Shown here one piece after another: positions 3,990 through 37,616 of a DNA stretch of 64,000 nt. Where the stretch lies: positions 43,846 through 107,845 of IMG/VR virus record IMGVR_UViG_3300044949_001956; one strand, 5' to 3'. Numbering within the stretch: the first letter of the stretch is position 1; the number at the start of each line of letters is the position of its first letter. The notes under the pieces are model-generated. The model saw nothing but the letters and a program-made list of their open reading frames with translations, did no database searches and was not told the DNA's origin. A program made the translations under genes and the position numbers. The stretch is from a virus.

Positions 3990-4187
3990 CTAGTGAAAAG
4001 ATTTTTGTATCCGCTCCGCTGAGGTCACATACACGTCGGCGGTTTTTCGGTCTAAGATATAAATAGGAGTTAGATCGGCTGCCTTGAACTCCTCTCCGTA
4101 CACAAGAAGCTTAGCAAAGCTGTTGTCGGTACCGGACAGGTAATCTGCAGCGATCCTAATCCTCTCCTCGGAGACTATCTCGAACAT
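3990..4187 (-). CDS. Hypothetical protein, 65 aa
   Basis: Starts MFEIVSEERIRIAADYL. No recognised family, no membrane segment. Its ATG overlaps the start of the plus-strand spanin gene by two bases, so the two are exactly divergent. Mixed alpha/beta composition and neighbour-like codon use support it being real; function unknown. Confidence 0.6.
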   Translation of the reverse strand: MFEIVSEERIRIAADYLSGTDNSFAKLLVYGEEFKAADLTPIYILDRKTADVYVTSAERIQKSFH

Positions 4188-11045: not shown

Positions 11046-11364
11046 GTAGTTTCTCCATATCGAGTTGTGAGGTCGGTTGATTCTGTTTCTAGGCTCAACC
11101 GTAAGCCCAAGAGATTACGCCGCTAAGCGAGTCTCAACAAAGCCGTTATCGTTGGCGTTTGTGTTGGTTTGTTGCGTTGGGTAGCTTCCGCACCATTGCC
11201 TACTTCGACCCTTACTGTCATCAGTCGATCCTGTTTCCGCCCCAAAGGAAAACTGTGACGTATCATCACTGACAGAGGTCACAGCCGTGTTATTGGTGGA
11301 GCGGCGGAGTGCTGCCCTCCGGTCCTGTCTGACCTATTTGGTCGCTATCATCAGCAACAAGGTA
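11046..11364. other. 319-base leader/intergenic region upstream of the outer-membrane protein
   Basis: No ORF or tRNA found on either strand. The only promoter seen is at 11365-11392, so the region would be a long transcribed 5' leader of the barrel gene. Several short self-complementary stretches occur but none is clearly a known riboswitch. Confidence 0.5.
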
Positions 11365-11392: not shown

Positions 11393-11690
11393 CCTTTTCC
11401 GACACAAGAGTTCGAGTCTCAGTGACCTTAGTGACTTGAATCGTCTCGAGCTTTGGAGAGTAATAGCTGGGCCCGACCTTTGATCTTGCTACGCTTATAG
11501 CCTTCTCTTTGGTGTCGAACTTGTATGCCAGCGTCTCGTTGGTGATCCACTGAAAGATGTTGTACTGGTAGTCGATGGAGACCCAAGCTGGTACATTCTC
11601 CTCCATCATCACGTACCCGGCTGAGTTCTCAGACTGATTCATCCGGACCGATACCGTGTAGTACTCTGTCTTGATCTCGTTAACTGTCAT
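11379..11690 (-). CDS. Hypothetical protein, 103 aa
   Basis: Starts MTVNEIKTEYYTVSVRMNQS; mainly beta. Last gene of a three-gene set with four- to eight-base overlaps. Not recognised. Confidence 0.65.
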   Translation of the reverse strand: MTVNEIKTEYYTVSVRMNQSENSAGYVMMEENVPAWVSIDYQYNIFQWITNETLAYKFDTKEKAISVARSKVGPSYYSPKLETIQVTKVTETRTLVSEKVDFD

Positions 11691-11872
11691 CGGTTCTTGA
11701 TGAGCTTGTAGAGTTCTGGGGCTACAACAAAGGCTCCGAACACGAGGAAGGGCGCTGCAAGCATGAACAGTGACAGAGCAGCGCCGAAGATGAATCCTAG
11801 ACCGATACCGAGTAAGATGTAGCCAAACGCTAGTATCAAAAGTCCGATGATGAGTCTTTCCTGATCAGGCAT
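11687..11872 (-). CDS. 61-aa membrane protein, two helices
   Basis: MPDQERLIIGLLILAFGYIL begins a nearly continuous hydrophobic run (two helices, residues 7-30 and 32-54) followed by a short basic tail YKLIKNR. The glycine pattern GYILLGIGLGFIFGAA suggests helix packing. It overlaps both neighbours. A holin-like role is possible from the topology but is not supported by context. Confidence 0.65.
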   Translation of the reverse strand: MPDQERLIIGLLILAFGYILLGIGLGFIFGAALSLFMLAAPFLVFGAFVVAPELYKLIKNR

Positions 11873-30023: not shown

Positions 30024-30560
30024 TCACATGATCCATTCAGGGGGTTGACGATTGGTCCAACTGTGCATCCGAGCCTTGCCTACCTTGTAGTAGTTTCGGT
30101 AGTTGGTCACCGGATCCTCACTGATGATGTACTGCTTGTCCATAGCGCAGGGCATCTCAGTCATGTCGTAGTCCCTCAGATTCTGGGGAGGGGACTGTAG
30201 GCAATAAGCAAGGTCAAAGCACTTATGTACCTTGCCGCCGTAGCGGTGAGAGTACTCGTCGTTGAGTGCATAGAAGTGCTCCACTAGCCAGAGGTAGTTC
30301 TCTACAGAAGTTCGGGTCCAGACCGCGGACGGATGGTTCATGTGCGTCGCTTGATACACGATGCTGTCACGGCCGTCGTCGAGAATGAACCGCTTGGCAT
30401 TCCGTCCAGTCTTGGTCTTACCGAGAGTCATGCGGCCGTCAAGCATCCGATGGGCGGTCGACAAGAGCTGTGCAGTTTCCAAAATCATTTTTACTACATG
30501 ACGGTCGACCATCCACTGTGCAGCTTGGCGAGGACAGCGGTCAATATAGAAAATGTTAAT
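30024..30560 (-). CDS. Conserved T4-like marine phage protein; probable ATT start
   Basis: Core sequence NIFYIDRCPRQAAQWMVDRH, VVKMILETAQLLSTAHRM and NHPSAVWTRTSVENYLWLVE is shared with an uncharacterised protein that I recall from T4-like cyanophages, where it begins M-NIF. Here the matching codon is ATT (30558-30560) with AAGGAGA six bases upstream; the next in-frame alternative is TTG at 30590 inside the homing endonuclease gene. About 178 residues. Histidine-rich; function unknown. Confidence 0.75.
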   Translation of the reverse strand: MNIFYIDRCPRQAAQWMVDRHVVKMILETAQLLSTAHRMLDGRMTLGKTKTGRNAKRFILDDGRDSIVYQATHMNHPSAVWTRTSVENYLWLVEHFYALNDEYSHRYGGKVHKCFDLAYCLQSPPQNLRDYDMTEMPCAMDKQYIISEDPVTNYRNYYKVGKARMHSWTNRQPPEWIM

Positions 30561-31269
30561 TTTTTGTCTCCTTTGAGCGACAATTGTCAAAGTGATAGCG
30601 TTTCATCGCAAACGCACCCCCACTTTTACCACAATGTGGACAACTTGTCAACTCTTGTTTGAAGCCTTTCTCTCTTACAGGAGAGTAGGCCTCATTCCAA
30701 CCTTTTGCTTGTCTAAGAAGGCCTTCAGGTGATATTGACTCTCTTGATCTTTTACCATGTTCTTTAAGCTCTTCGGCTGTCATACTAGAAAATCTTTTGG
30801 CTTGAGCTTCACTTTTTAACCTTCTGGAATGCTCACTTTCCTTCATACCTCTTTTGCTTTTGTTTGCAGATTCGGTCAACATCCGTTTTTGTTCCATGGT
30901 CATCCTTGATCTTTGCTCCTTAAGACTATTAGACAGCTTAAGAAGTGTTTCAGGTGAACATTCACGATCCACACAACCTTCTCCACCAGCCGTCATGTTA
31001 TAGCCGAACTCGTACGAGTTTGAATTGTAGTGCCTTATCCACTTTTGCTCTAACTCATAGACATGTTCTGGCGCACATGTTTCCAATAGACTGACATCAA
31101 AGTTTTCCACACCGTGCTTTTTCATTGATTGATACAGACGACGACCTTCAAGATTGGGCCCTCTGCTATTGCGAATGTGTTCCTTAAATCTGGATTCTAT
31201 TGAGTGTTTTGTTATGCCGACATACTTTTTGCTGTTCAGTCGATTTTCTATCAGATAAACAAACGGCAT
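30556..31269 (-). CDS. GIY-YIG homing endonuclease 2
   Basis: 237 residues. VYLIENRLNSKKYVGITKHS is the GIY-YIG core, Arg in SIESRFKEH and Glu in YELEQKWIRHYN; the middle carries NUMOD-type helices (SEAQAKRFSSMTAEELKEHG) and the end a zinc finger (SCPHCGKSGGAFAMKRYHFD then NC). A+T rich relative to flanks. Its TAA stop overlaps the start region of the next gene. Transcription and translation seem controlled by the element at 31266-31305. Confidence 0.93.
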   Translation of the reverse strand: MPFVYLIENRLNSKKYVGITKHSIESRFKEHIRNSRGPNLEGRRLYQSMKKHGVENFDVSLLETCAPEHVYELEQKWIRHYNSNSYEFGYNMTAGGEGCVDRECSPETLLKLSNSLKEQRSRMTMEQKRMLTESANKSKRGMKESEHSRRLKSEAQAKRFSSMTAEELKEHGKRSRESISPEGLLRQAKGWNEAYSPVREKGFKQELTSCPHCGKSGGAFAMKRYHFDNCRSKETKN

Positions 31270-31929: not shown

Positions 31930-33645
31930 CTATTGAACCTCTTCAAGTCTGCTGAAGTTCTTGTGCTTCACGAACCGGATGGTGTTGGTGAACTTGTCGT
32001 GTAGATTATCCCTGTGAGAGATGATGAACACGTTGGACTCCCTGCTGAGTGCTTGCAGGATCTTCAGTAGATCATCTGCGGCATTACCGTCAAGGCTCGA
32101 GTCGAACACCTCGTCGAGGATGAGCAGGTTGGTGTTCAACGAGTTCCTGAGCTTGGCGACTGCCCTCCACGTGAACAGGATCGCCAGGTCGATCTTCTGC
32201 TTCTCGCCCTCGCTGAAGGACGCGTAGGAGAACTCGTCACGGTGCCTGGACTTGATGGTCTCGTTGAACTGCTCGTCCAGGTGGAACTCCACGAACAGGT
32301 CAAACTCGCTCAAGTACTTATTGATGAGCTTGTTGATGATCGGCACGTACTGGTTGACGATCTTGGTCTTGATGCCGCCGTCCTTGAGCATTGCTGCAGC
32401 CGCGGCAAGCACCTGACGGTCATCCTGGAGCTCATTGTAGAGGCTGGTCAATCCATTGAGTTGAGTCTCCAGGTCTGCAACCTTGACGTCGCTAGTCTCA
32501 TCCTTGTCACGCTGGGCATCCTCGATCTCTTTCTGGATGGACTTGATCTGGTCCTCGTACATCCGTGCACGTAGAGTCTCGTGTGATATCTGAGTGATGA
32601 TCTCGTCGTACTTCTTGTCTAGAGCCAGGAGCTCGTTGAGTTCGGCGTGCAGTTGCTCGTGTTTCTCCGCCAGCTTCTGCAGACCGGCTTCAATCTCCTT
32701 GGTCTCCGTCTCCCGCTGAGAGACTATCTGACAGCTGAATTCTCGGTCGATGTTCTGTCGGCAAGTCGGACAGCTGTCGTGGTCAGTGAAGAACTTGATG
32801 TCCTTGACGAGCATGGAGGTCTTTGCCTCCATCTGTGCCCGGAGGGCTCGCATCTTCTCAAGCTTTAATTTCAGAGCAGTCGACTGCCCTGCATCGGTGT
32901 TCAGGTCATCCGCTTGCTTCCTGAGAGTCTGCTTTGCGTTCAGGATCTCAGCGACCTTGGACTCTAGACTCTCCAGGGTCACCGTCTTTTCCCTGATGAA
33001 CTGCTCGCTCTTGGACCGAACCTCGTTGAGGTGAGCCTTGAGCATCTTGATCTTTTCAGACACCAGCTTCTGGTCAGTCGAGTTCTGGAAGATCTGGTCC
33101 TGGTTCTCCTGCACACGGGACTTCAGCAGCGTGTTCATGACCGTAAAGACCTGCAGGTCTAGCAGGTCCTCGATGATCGAGCGCCTCTGTCCCGCCGGCA
33201 ACTGCATGAACGGAACAAAGGATGCGGACCCAAGCACCACTACCTGACAGAAGGACTTGTAGTTAGTCTTTAGGATCTTTCGCTCCAGGAGCTCCTGGTA
33301 GTCCCTCATCTCTGCTTCTTGGTTAAGCAGTACGTCGTTGCAGAAGACCTCAAACACGTTCGGCTTGAGGCCTCGGCGGATCATGTAGTGGTTCCTGCCG
33401 ATCATGAACTCCAGCTCGACCAGTGCGTCACGGTTGGTGATGCTGTTGATTAGCTGGGGCTTGTTGATGTTACGGAAGGGCTTGCCGAAGAGGGCAAACG
33501 TCAGGGCGTCAAGGATCGTTGACTTGCCGGCGCCGTTCTCGCCCACGATCAGGGTCGTGCCCTGAGTCGACAAGTCTAGCTCAGTGAACGCGTTTCCGGT
33601 GGAGAGTAGGTTCTTCCACCTGATCTTGCCAAATGCAATTCCCAT
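31930..33645 (-). CDS. 46: Recombination nuclease subunit gp46 (Rad50/SbcC-like)
   Basis: 571 residues, T4 length 560. Walker A GENGAGKST (35-43), long coiled coil with zinc hook CPTC near 293-296, ABC signature FSEGEKQKIDLA near 480 and Walker B NLLILDEVFDSS near 510. With gp47 it resects DNA ends for recombination-dependent replication and degrades host DNA. Start overlaps the gp47 stop by one base. Complete. Confidence 0.97.
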   Translation of the reverse strand: MGIAFGKIRWKNLLSTGNAFTELDLSTQGTTLIVGENGAGKSTILDALTFALFGKPFRNINKPQLINSITNRDALVELEFMIGRNHYMIRRGLKPNVFEVFCNDVLLNQEAEMRDYQELLERKILKTNYKSFCQVVVLGSASFVPFMQLPAGQRRSIIEDLLDLQVFTVMNTLLKSRVQENQDQIFQNSTDQKLVSEKIKMLKAHLNEVRSKSEQFIREKTVTLESLESKVAEILNAKQTLRKQADDLNTDAGQSTALKLKLEKMRALRAQMEAKTSMLVKDIKFFTDHDSCPTCRQNIDREFSCQIVSQRETETKEIEAGLQKLAEKHEQLHAELNELLALDKKYDEIITQISHETLRARMYEDQIKSIQKEIEDAQRDKDETSDVKVADLETQLNGLTSLYNELQDDRQVLAAAAAMLKDGGIKTKIVNQYVPIINKLINKYLSEFDLFVEFHLDEQFNETIKSRHRDEFSYASFSEGEKQKIDLAILFTWRAVAKLRNSLNTNLLILDEVFDSSLDGNAADDLLKILQALSRESNVFIISHRDNLHDKFTNTIRFVKHKNFSRLEEVQ

Positions 33646-34718
33646 TATGTCTCTACCGTGATTGCCTGACCGTATAGGTCCACAATCAGTCTTTCAAGTT
33701 TAGCGTGGTTCAGGTTCGGTGCCTGTATTTGATTTAGGTGCTTCTTGAACACGTCGAGCGTGGACTCCGCCTCGTTGACGATGTCCTCGTCGTTCTCTAG
33801 ATTCAAGTTCAGGTGATCCTCTACGATCTGCATGCCCAGAGGACCCGCCTTGTCGAGTCGCTCACACACCATGTCAAACCAGTAGGGATTGGTCTTTTCC
33901 TGCACGATGAGCTTGATGTACTTGCCCGAGCACTCACCGAAGTTCATGCCGAGTACTTCCTCCAGAGTCTTGCCCTTGTCGCTGTACCACACCTTCTTGA
34001 ACATGGTATGCGGGTTGGGGATGAACTCTAGTTCTTGCGTCTTGAGATCAAAGATATGAAAGCCACGGGGATCGCCATGATCAGACCAAGTAAACTCGCC
34101 ATGAGAACCAACGTAAGTGATGCTGCCATCACTAGACTTATGATGAAAATGGCCAGAGAAAGTAGCAGCAAACCTATCAAACAGGCTGCGGCTCTCTCCA
34201 TGAGTTGACACACTGCCCCTGTACATCTCGAAGCCGCTGATTTCAAGGTGTCCCATGCAGACATTGGCTTTGCTCTCCTTCAGTAGAGTCAGACTCTTGG
34301 CTCGATTGTCGTCACAGATCCACGGGATGAACAGGACCTGGTACCCACAGAGATCGACCTCTTCAGGTCCGATGTAGCACTCGATGTTGGGATAGTTGAC
34401 GCCCAAGAGCTCAGTCAGGGCGTTGACCTGGTTCGTGTTCTTGTAATAGCAGTCGTGGTTGCCAGCAATGACGTGCATCTGATAGTTCTTGCGCCGCAGG
34501 ACGTTTAGAAAGTCCTTGCGTAGTCGACCTGCAGTCAGATAGCTGATATGTTTTCGGCGGTCGACAAGGTCTCCTAGGTGCACGATGTCACTGATTCCTC
34601 GGTCATGCAGAGTCGGGAAGAACACGTCATCAAGGAACCGCTTGGTCATGTCCATGAAGGGAACGCTGTCGCCGCGGACACCCCAGTGGGTGTCGGCTAT
34701 AATAGCTACTTTAGTCAA
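33645..34718 (-). CDS. 47: Recombination nuclease gp47 (Mre11/SbcD-like)
   Basis: 357 residues. Metallophosphoesterase motifs ADTHWG (8-13), HLGDLVDRR (47-55), GNHDC (86-90) and FSGHFHHK (about 173-180). Forms the MR-type complex with gp46. The stretch covering the last motif (nucleotides 34030-34225) uses T-ending codons strikingly more than the rest of the gene and coincides with an open overlapping frame (34028-34264). Confidence 0.97.
   Translation of the reverse strand: MTKVAIIADTHWGVRGDSVPFMDMTKRFLDDVFFPTLHDRGISDIVHLGDLVDRRKHISYLTAGRLRKDFLNVLRRKNYQMHVIAGNHDCYYKNTNQVNALTELLGVNYPNIECYIGPEEVDLCGYQVLFIPWICDDNRAKSLTLLKESKANVCMGHLEISGFEMYRGSVSTHGESRSLFDRFAATFSGHFHHKSSDGSITYVGSHGEFTWSDHGDPRGFHIFDLKTQELEFIPNPHTMFKKVWYSDKGKTLEEVLGMNFGECSGKYIKLIVQEKTNPYWFDMVCERLDKAGPLGMQIVEDHLNLNLENDEDIVNEAESTLDVFKKHLNQIQAPNLNHAKLERLIVDLYGQAITVET
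34028..34264 (-). CDS. Candidate overprinted membrane protein inside gp47
   Basis: Alternative frame within gp47, 78 residues, starting MSAWDTLKSAASRCTG with GGAGAG eight bases before the ATG. Residues 28-72 form two hydrophobic helices (ACLIGLLLLSLAIFIISLVM and LVLMASLLGLIMAIPVAF) and the end is basic (SRRKN). The same-strand overlap falls exactly on the block of gp47 with unusual codons. Could still be chance, since T in gp47 third positions automatically gives hydrophobic residues in this frame. Confidence 0.4.
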   Translation of the reverse strand: MSAWDTLKSAASRCTGAVCQLMERAAACLIGLLLLSLAIFIISLVMAASLTLVLMASLLGLIMAIPVAFISLISRRKN

Positions 34719-34722
34719 TGCT

Positions 34723-35241
34723 CTACTCCAGAAACTTCTCTACTCCGGAGACTTTATCCTGCTTTTTGTTCTTTGTCAACTTACTTTCGAAGCTATGGAT
34801 GATCTCGTTGGACAGGTCGTTGTTCTTGATCTGAAATGATGCGCCCGTGTCACCGTACTGCATGTCGTCCATCTCACCTGACAGGTAGGTGTGCTGGATG
34901 TTCTTGTGCTTCACGTACTGTTCTCGCTTTTCACTGCTGATTCGGCGAATGAAGGCGTTCCATGCAATCTGGGTGAAGTAGGCAAACGGGTTGTTGGTCC
35001 TGGCGGGATCAAACAGGTGCACAGCCTTGATGCAGTTTTCGATGCCGTCGGACACCATCTCATCCCGGAATGAATAGCCGACAAAGTTGGGCTTGGTCGA
35101 GAGTCGCTCACAGATCTTGAAGATGCACACGCCTAGGTACTCTGGGATCCTGGCGTTGGGGTCCTCCTTGAGCTTCTCCCTGTAAGCAACAATGGCTTCA
35201 TAGAAATCTCGGTTGTTGACATAGTGTCGCTTTGCTGCCAT
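34723..35241 (-). CDS. 55: Late transcription sigma factor gp55
   Basis: 172 residues. Minimal sigma70-family protein; the region-2-like segment FRDEMVSDGIENCIKAVHLF with NNPFAYFTQIAWNAFIRRI is diagnostic. Directs host RNA polymerase to TATAAATA late promoters with the gp45 clamp as activator. Several such promoters are visible before the head and tail genes of this window. Confidence 0.95.
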   Translation of the reverse strand: MAAKRHYVNNRDFYEAIVAYREKLKEDPNARIPEYLGVCIFKICERLSTKPNFVGYSFRDEMVSDGIENCIKAVHLFDPARTNNPFAYFTQIAWNAFIRRISSEKREQYVKHKNIQHTYLSGEMDDMQYGDTGASFQIKNNDLSNEIIHSFESKLTKNKKQDKVSGVEKFLE

Positions 35242-37295: not shown

Positions 37296-37616
37296 TCAAC
37301 CACCGACAAAGACCGTAGAGAATCCTGAAGTTATGATGTTGTCAGACGTGTACCTGTCTCCGATCCTACCTATACCCTTTCCACCTACAAGAACAGTAGA
37401 TGAAAATGCTGTAAGCGGAGATATATCGGGCCCACATCCTGAAAATGGGTGTAGTCCCACAAGATCTCCCTGCAACACTATTTGTGAACCGCCAACAAAT
37501 ACAGTTGAAGTGCCAGGCCCCGTGGATGTCGTCATAGGTGCTCTACACCCTTTGCCAAGTCCTGTACGAGAAAGAACCCTATCGACACCATTTGCTCTAG
37601 CTATAGCTGGCATCAT
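37296..37616 (-). CDS. PAAR-domain spike tip protein
   Basis: 106 residues. MPAIARANGVDRVLSRTGLG opens a PAAR repeat fold with conserved PGTSTVFVGG and FSSTVLVGGKGIGRIGDRYT. PAAR proteins cap the baseplate spike (T4 gp5.4) and pierce the outer membrane. Several His/Cys (HPFSGCGPD) can bind the zinc. Its stop is close to uvsY; its start overlaps the next virion gene. Confidence 0.88.
   Translation of the reverse strand: MMPAIARANGVDRVLSRTGLGKGCRAPMTTSTGPGTSTVFVGGSQIVLQGDLVGLHPFSGCGPDISPLTAFSSTVLVGGKGIGRIGDRYTSDNIITSGFSTVFVGG

Follow-up and report, generated by a model that had tools for sequence, protein, structure and literature searches.

A 78-codon reading frame contained within gp47, on the same strand as its host gene, is very likely a functional overprinted protein gene kept by selection; we put the probability of this reading at about 0.87, and no expression data are available. 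Comparison of relatives shows selection on the frame, on both of its ends, on its hydrophobicity and on the region of its start. The DNA analysed (hereafter the window) forms the final 64 kb of an uncultured virus record of 107,845 bp, and the coordinates of the relevant features are collected in Table 1.

The frame and its setting

The ORF occupies the +1 frame of gp47 codons 152-230, in an operon-like minus-strand run of gp55, gp47 and gp46. A sigma70-like match (34779-34751, minus strand), which ends 33 nt before gp47, could possibly drive transcription; this is a consensus match only. What the first-pass annotation had claimed about the frame itself held: the same-strand 78-codon frame with its ATG is present, and the ribosome site it had called GGAGAG is the same site as the AAGGAG of Table 1. 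It had also described two transmembrane helices and a basic tail, of which the two hydrophobic stretches and the tail were confirmed, the membrane helices being predicted.

Table 1. Features of the overprinted ORF and its neighbourhood (window positions)
Feature	Positions	Strand	Basis or remark
Overprinted ORF, 78 aa	34028-34264	-	ATG at 34264-34262, TAG stop at 34030-34028
Shine-Dalgarno-like AAGGAG	34275-34280	-	10 nt before the ATG of the ORF
Predicted hydrophobic helix 1, alt residues 25-43	34136-34192	-	Column hydropathy over 50 lineages; AlphaFold2 helix, pLDDT 93-97
Predicted hydrophobic helix 2, alt residues 48-66	34067-34123	-	Column hydropathy over 50 lineages; AlphaFold2 helix
Basic C-terminal tail SRRKN, alt residues 74-78	34031-34045	-	Sequence; charge in 50 lineages
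gp47 codons 176-226, T-ending codon excess and A-ending deficit	34041-34193	-	Codon-usage tests
gp47, SbcD-like nuclease subunit, TTG start, hosts the ORF	33645-34718	-	PHROG 100, E 4e-97; Pfam Metallophos
gp46, SbcC-like subunit, next gene in the run	31930-33645	-	PHROG 77, E 2e-168
gp55-like late sigma factor, directly upstream of gp47	34723-35241	-	PHROG 234, E 8e-52

Some other features of the window are recorded here as side observations. Near the gp46/gp47 operon, an ORF at 30556-31269 (minus strand) begins MPFVYLIENRLNSKKYVGITKHS, and by its appearance we take it to be a GIY-YIG homing endonuclease. Another, at 37296-37616 (minus strand), carries repeated TVFVGG motifs and by appearance is taken to be a PAAR-type spike tip protein. 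A 61-aa ORF at 11687-11872 (minus strand) has two strong hydrophobic segments (MPDQERLIIGLLILAFGYILLGIGLGFIFGAALSLFMLAAPFLVFGAFVVAPELYKLIKNR) and may possibly be a stand-alone holin-like or membrane protein. The octamer TATAAATA, which is the T4 late promoter consensus, occurs five times, at 4058 on the plus strand and at 11363, 40317, 41397 and 57900 on the minus strand, where 0.23 occurrences are expected by chance.

Within the window, the +1 frame of gp47 stays open in 11.6% of shuffles of the gp47 codons, and therefore the bare open frame is unremarkable. Its hydrophobicity is remarkable: the two-segment hydropathy score of the 78-aa product (2.57) is the highest among ORFs of 50-150 aa on both strands of the window, and none of 20,000 codon shuffles matched it. 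A switch of gp47 to T-ending codons in this block had likewise been claimed, and this was borne out. The 50 codons from gp47 codon 180 contain 29 T-ending codons where 11.0 are expected (z 6.3), the most extreme excess among 2,458 codon windows taken from 55 genes; the six highest-ranking windows are all shifts of the same block. Third-position T is raised and third-position C lowered (z +7.1 and -4.1), so that T replaces C.

Conservation of the frame, its ends and its start

Scanning viral contigs three times with gp47 proteins yielded 196 distinct gp47 sequences, which were codon-aligned. From these we took 66 representatives that are at least 48% identical to the window (48-100%) and less than 85% identical to one another; openness of the frame was not a selection criterion. 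Stop counts were compared with those obtained by synonymous codon shuffling inside each gene. The +1 frame is open in 50 of the 66 representatives, where 10.3 are expected, and they carry 26 stops in it against an expectation of 106. The nearest relative, L002 (gp47 76% identical), shares with the window ORF its ATG, its stop codon and both hydrophobic stretches. In a more distant clade, of which 40 sequences were analysed, the counts are close to chance, with 92 stops against 98.7 expected and 3 open frames against 2.3.

The position of the depletion along the gene was determined in 59 sequences that are either open or at least 51% identical to the window. Stops in the +1 frame are depleted only in codons 151-225 (10 vs 109 expected), while the flanks have normal or higher counts (105 vs 77 and 65 vs 39 expected), and codon 230 carries the terminal stop more often than by chance (50 of 59 vs 28 expected). 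When codons are shuffled only within the block, +1 stops are still depleted (11 vs 37 expected). Antisense stops are also somewhat depleted, but they lie at expectation under the same within-block shuffling (52 vs 52), and therefore the selected frame is the sense +1 frame. An antisense ORF at 34035-34208 (plus strand) was rejected as a gene for the same reason, since its openness follows from the depletion of A at third positions.

A tree of gp47 calculated without the block columns places 52 of 53 open sequences in one 67-member group with 95% support, and the open or closed state changes 15 times on the tree, compared to about 39 times in shuffles. The best fit is likely a single origin of the ORF followed by losses and C-terminal truncations; the gene would thus have been born once in a T4-like phage clade and been lost or shortened in some of its lineages. 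About a dozen clade members have stops in the +1 frame, and therefore the ORF is dispensable in some phages. One refuting outcome named beforehand was stops in close relatives; none is found in L002, L083, L003 or L085, although one of the nearer lineages, L084 (56%), has lost the frame. The outgroup stop arises where gp47 EFTW becomes EMTW, so that ATG-A reads as TGA in the +1 register.

No isolate belongs to the open clade. The isolates near it (DLP6, Melnitz, Mosig, phiM19, S-CREM1 and P-RSM6) were rejected as carriers because they have stops or lack the hydrophobic pattern. In phage records, tblastn matched the gp47 genes of S-RIM4 and Cr30, whose alternative frames are not intact two-segment ORFs, and otherwise one weak unrelated record. 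A scan of genome contigs found just three distant gp47 loci, and tblastn with the ORF over viral contigs gave no homologues elsewhere.

The start region points to selection as well. Within alt positions -8 to +1, half of the 50 open lineages (25; 6.4 expected) have an ATG preceded by a Shine-Dalgarno (SD) match, compared to 5 of 54 sequences outside the clade (2.1 expected). These sites are non-homologous: they lie at +1, -1, -4 or -7 and arise from different gp47 codons. In 47 of the 50 open lineages an in-frame ATG reaches the ORF, where 24.9 are expected. The other half of the open lineages (25 of 50) have no SD-ATG near the start; 18 of these 25 have, as the obvious candidate start, an ATG at about -15 without recognisable SD, and therefore the start is uncertain in those 18. 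A later start at M22 was rejected: this methionine is common (35 of 50), but in the window it lacks an SD, and an excess was not shown. We propose internal initiation on the gp47 mRNA, in which ribosomes would start at the ATG that follows AAGGAG and translate the +1 frame; translation is inferred.

Third-position composition and rival explanations

In this overlap a third-position T of gp47 becomes a second-position T of the overlapping frame and thus encodes hydrophobic residues, and a third-position A becomes a second-position A, which gives polar residues or stops. Over gp47 codons 169-224 the 50 open lineages show the peak of the T excess (mean z +2.0, 94% positive at the 177 start) and a depletion of A (mean z -2.3, 98% negative), whereas in the more distant clade the values are only about +0.3 and -0.4. 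Among members of the open clade the T excess rises with the third-position GC content (GC3) of the gene (slope p = 1.5e-6), a trend that is absent from the other sequences. It is weak in AT-rich clade members and clearest in the window, because the GC3 of the window (0.66) is the highest of the clade. Selection for hydrophobic residues in the +1 frame would hold T and exclude A at the third positions of gp47 codons 176-226, and since the GC-rich lineage of the window otherwise uses C, the retained T would appear as an island of unusual codon usage.

The first-pass annotation had left two causes of this island standing, selection for the hidden protein and a recombination tract. The former is supported, in that L002 keeps the ORF, 50 of 66 frames are open and the T shift recurs in the clade and not outside it; the latter is not. 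According to the recombination explanation, a tract from an AT-rich relative made the island and the hydrophobic frame is a by-product. In its favour, relatives in the clade are AT-richer and use T-ending codons, and similarity to relatives is higher in the block than over the remainder of gp47. However, the window is closest to L002 both in the block (0.78 nucleotide identity) and elsewhere in gp47 (0.67), and therefore no foreign donor, and no closer one, is visible. Moreover, AT-rich clade members themselves show the T excess and A deficit of the block relative to their own genes, and an import would leave unexplained the clade-wide stop depletion, the conserved ends and the shifting SD-ATG sites. 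We consider this explanation very unlikely.

Normal synonymous diversity across the block, which would also have counted against the gene, is not observed. Synonymous identity is raised in the block between the window and L002 (25/40 vs 76/192, p = 0.007) and between the window and L083 (25/35 vs 35/139, p = 6e-7). As a separate observation, synonymous conservation in the open clade is also raised at gp47 codons 33-65, where no ORF overlaps. Synonymous conservation was therefore rejected as stand-alone proof and is given little weight; it is not unique to the overlap, whereas the shift of third-position T and A and the stop depletion are confined to it.

Could a codon preference at conserved motifs deplete stops without a second protein? 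In this explanation, codons chosen for accuracy at the phosphoesterase motif GHFHH, with few A or G endings, would deplete +1 stops. We compared the block with gp46, gp55 and uvsW from the same contigs, whose lowest stop ratios per 75-codon window are 0.51-0.54 of expectation, compared to 0.21 in the gp47 block. The lowest control windows sit at conserved motifs of gp46 and uvsW, and mild effects at gp47 codons 33-65 point the same way. Because control windows reach half of the expected stops, codon shuffling overstates significance at conserved motifs. The best 75-codon window of the gp47 block is open in 55 of 66 sequences vs 9.3 expected; the best control window, gp46 from codon 433, is open in 18 of 51 vs 1.1 expected. 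The gp47 block nevertheless lies well apart from the controls, and it alone shows a T excess and a hydrophobic +1 frame. Against the motif explanation, the GC-rich window prefers C and G endings, yet the block takes T and avoids C; other motifs in the window have no T excess; and the distant clade has the same motif without the signal (z for T -0.01). In addition, the depletion begins and finishes at the ends of the ORF, and the SD-ATG enrichment is not predicted. For these reasons we hold motif codon preference to be very unlikely as the cause.

The open region of gp46 (codons about 433-508, in the same clade) is a matter of its own. Its +1 frame is not hydrophobic and the copy in the window has a stop; its openness may reflect motif codon preference or possibly another overlap.

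An RNA- or DNA-level element in place of a protein, such as a U-rich and A-poor stretch or a regulatory site, is also very unlikely. Higher T and lower A at third positions could reflect such a signal. However, folding at the start site, the only place where it was calculated, is ordinary (z +1.2 to -0.2 over five stretches of 40-80 nt), and the depletion persists in the within-block shuffles, which keep the third-base composition of the block; therefore composition alone cannot produce it.

The predicted protein and its possible role

Across the 50 open lineages the N-terminal part of the predicted protein is basic, with Lys or Arg at positions 1, 8, 10 and 13, and hydrophobic columns extend from about residue 25 to 66. 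Pro-44, present in 31 of 50 lineages, marks a break between the two hydrophobic segments. Cys-14 and Gly-60 are invariant, and both follow from gp47 residues. The mean net charge of residues 70-78 is +1.4. AlphaFold2 predicts a confident helix throughout (pLDDT 85.5, pTM 0.48), as one continuous rod without a hairpin. Because a single crossing would not take up about 40 hydrophobic residues, we infer a two-helix hairpin. The product, with a basic amphipathic N-terminus, these hydrophobic residues and a basic C-terminus, would be able to form such a hairpin, and an inner-membrane helical hairpin is likely, although membrane insertion is inferred and the AlphaFold2 model shows a single rod. By the positive-inside rule the topology is inferred to be N-in/C-in.

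No family was matched in a Pfam search with the window ORF, no PHROG matched it better than E 0.05, and a structure search in a viral library found no match for the product. Our literature searches brought up no description of an ORF within gp47.

The function is inferred, and it is the most speculative part of our interpretation. In T4 the expression of genes 46 and 47 is early, and membrane effectors are frequent among overprinted phage proteins (PMC8227390; PMC9936078; PMC7693330). We favour an early membrane effector that would act in superinfection exclusion or takeover of the inner membrane, and give this role an even chance at best, above the timing of lysis, for example as a holin or antiholin, which is our second choice and remains possible. 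The case for a lysis regulator is that two hydrophobic segments with charged ends, as in the hydropathy of the 50 lineages, match the known anatomy of class II holins; that in small phages overprinting gives rise to embedded single-gene lysis genes (PMC8227390; PMC7693330); and that the T4 t-type holin (PF11031), the only holin family searched for, was not found in seven clade records, which may be incomplete. On the other hand, the ORF sits in a replication and recombination gene, which is early in T4, and the window contains another small two-segment ORF (11687-11872).

A bolder version of the early-effector reading, which we would bet slightly against, is that the ORF represents an undescribed overprinted inner-membrane family with one birth in gp47 of T4-like phages, spread through a deep uncultured clade, in which the initiation site moved repeatedly (+1, -1, -4, -7 and perhaps -15) as the hairpin was kept for exclusion or takeover. 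Should the protein prove to block superinfection or to time lysis, it would be a new membrane effector of an abundant uncultured phage group. In a phage with a large genome, space saving is an unlikely reason for overprinting a core replication gene. Embedded same-strand ORFs are discarded by gene callers, so that large phages probably have more coding capacity than is recognised. The combination of stop depletion, third-position T and A shift and moving start sites is a comparative test that can be used on other phage genes.

Precedent for this genetic device exists in phiX174 D/E; new, as far as we searched, are the gene family, the host gene and the phage group. In phiX174 the overlap is also of the +1 type, so that a third-position T of the older gene is a second-position T of the younger gene and Leu-rich membrane segments result (PMC8227390), the same effect as in the gp47 ORF. 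However, phiX174 is a tiny phage with ssDNA, and its E protein is an inhibitor of cell-wall synthesis, whereas our ORF lies in gp47 of a large dsDNA phage and has two segments. The sgl lysis genes of Levivirus are short, unrelated-looking membrane-type ORFs embedded in rep (PMC7693330), and thus share with the gp47 ORF the location in a replication gene. They arise repeatedly and differ between relatives, while the gp47 ORF has one likely origin and is kept across a broad DNA-phage clade. For olg1/olg2 of Pseudomonas phage Fc02, small overlapping genes in alternate frames, superinfection-exclusion activity is reported (PMC9936078); these are different genes in a regulatory region of a temperate phage, and for the gp47 ORF there is no evidence of exclusion.

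T4 Imm resembles the predicted product in size and in its two hydrophobic segments. The Imm family (PF14373) was not matched by the window ORF in Pfam, and nothing exceeded the cut-off in the genome of the window or in the seven possibly incomplete clade records; Imm is not an embedded gene, unlike the gp47 ORF. As to the surroundings of gp47, it overlaps gp46 by 4 nt in most clade members, and cultured T4-like phages (L224-L226; e.g. S-CREM1, P-RSM6 and phiM19) have an unrelated soluble small gene between the two. The cyanophage gene of this type (S-CREM1 UYA57652) is comparable as a small extra protein in the 47-46 operon, but it is soluble-looking, 83-87 aa long and located between the genes, not inside gp47. 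Class II holins, of about 65-95 aa with two segments and charged ends, lack a family match to the ORF in PHROG and Pfam. In length and hydropathy the ORF fits them, with an inferred N-in/C-in topology and an AlphaFold2 model of one continuous helix.
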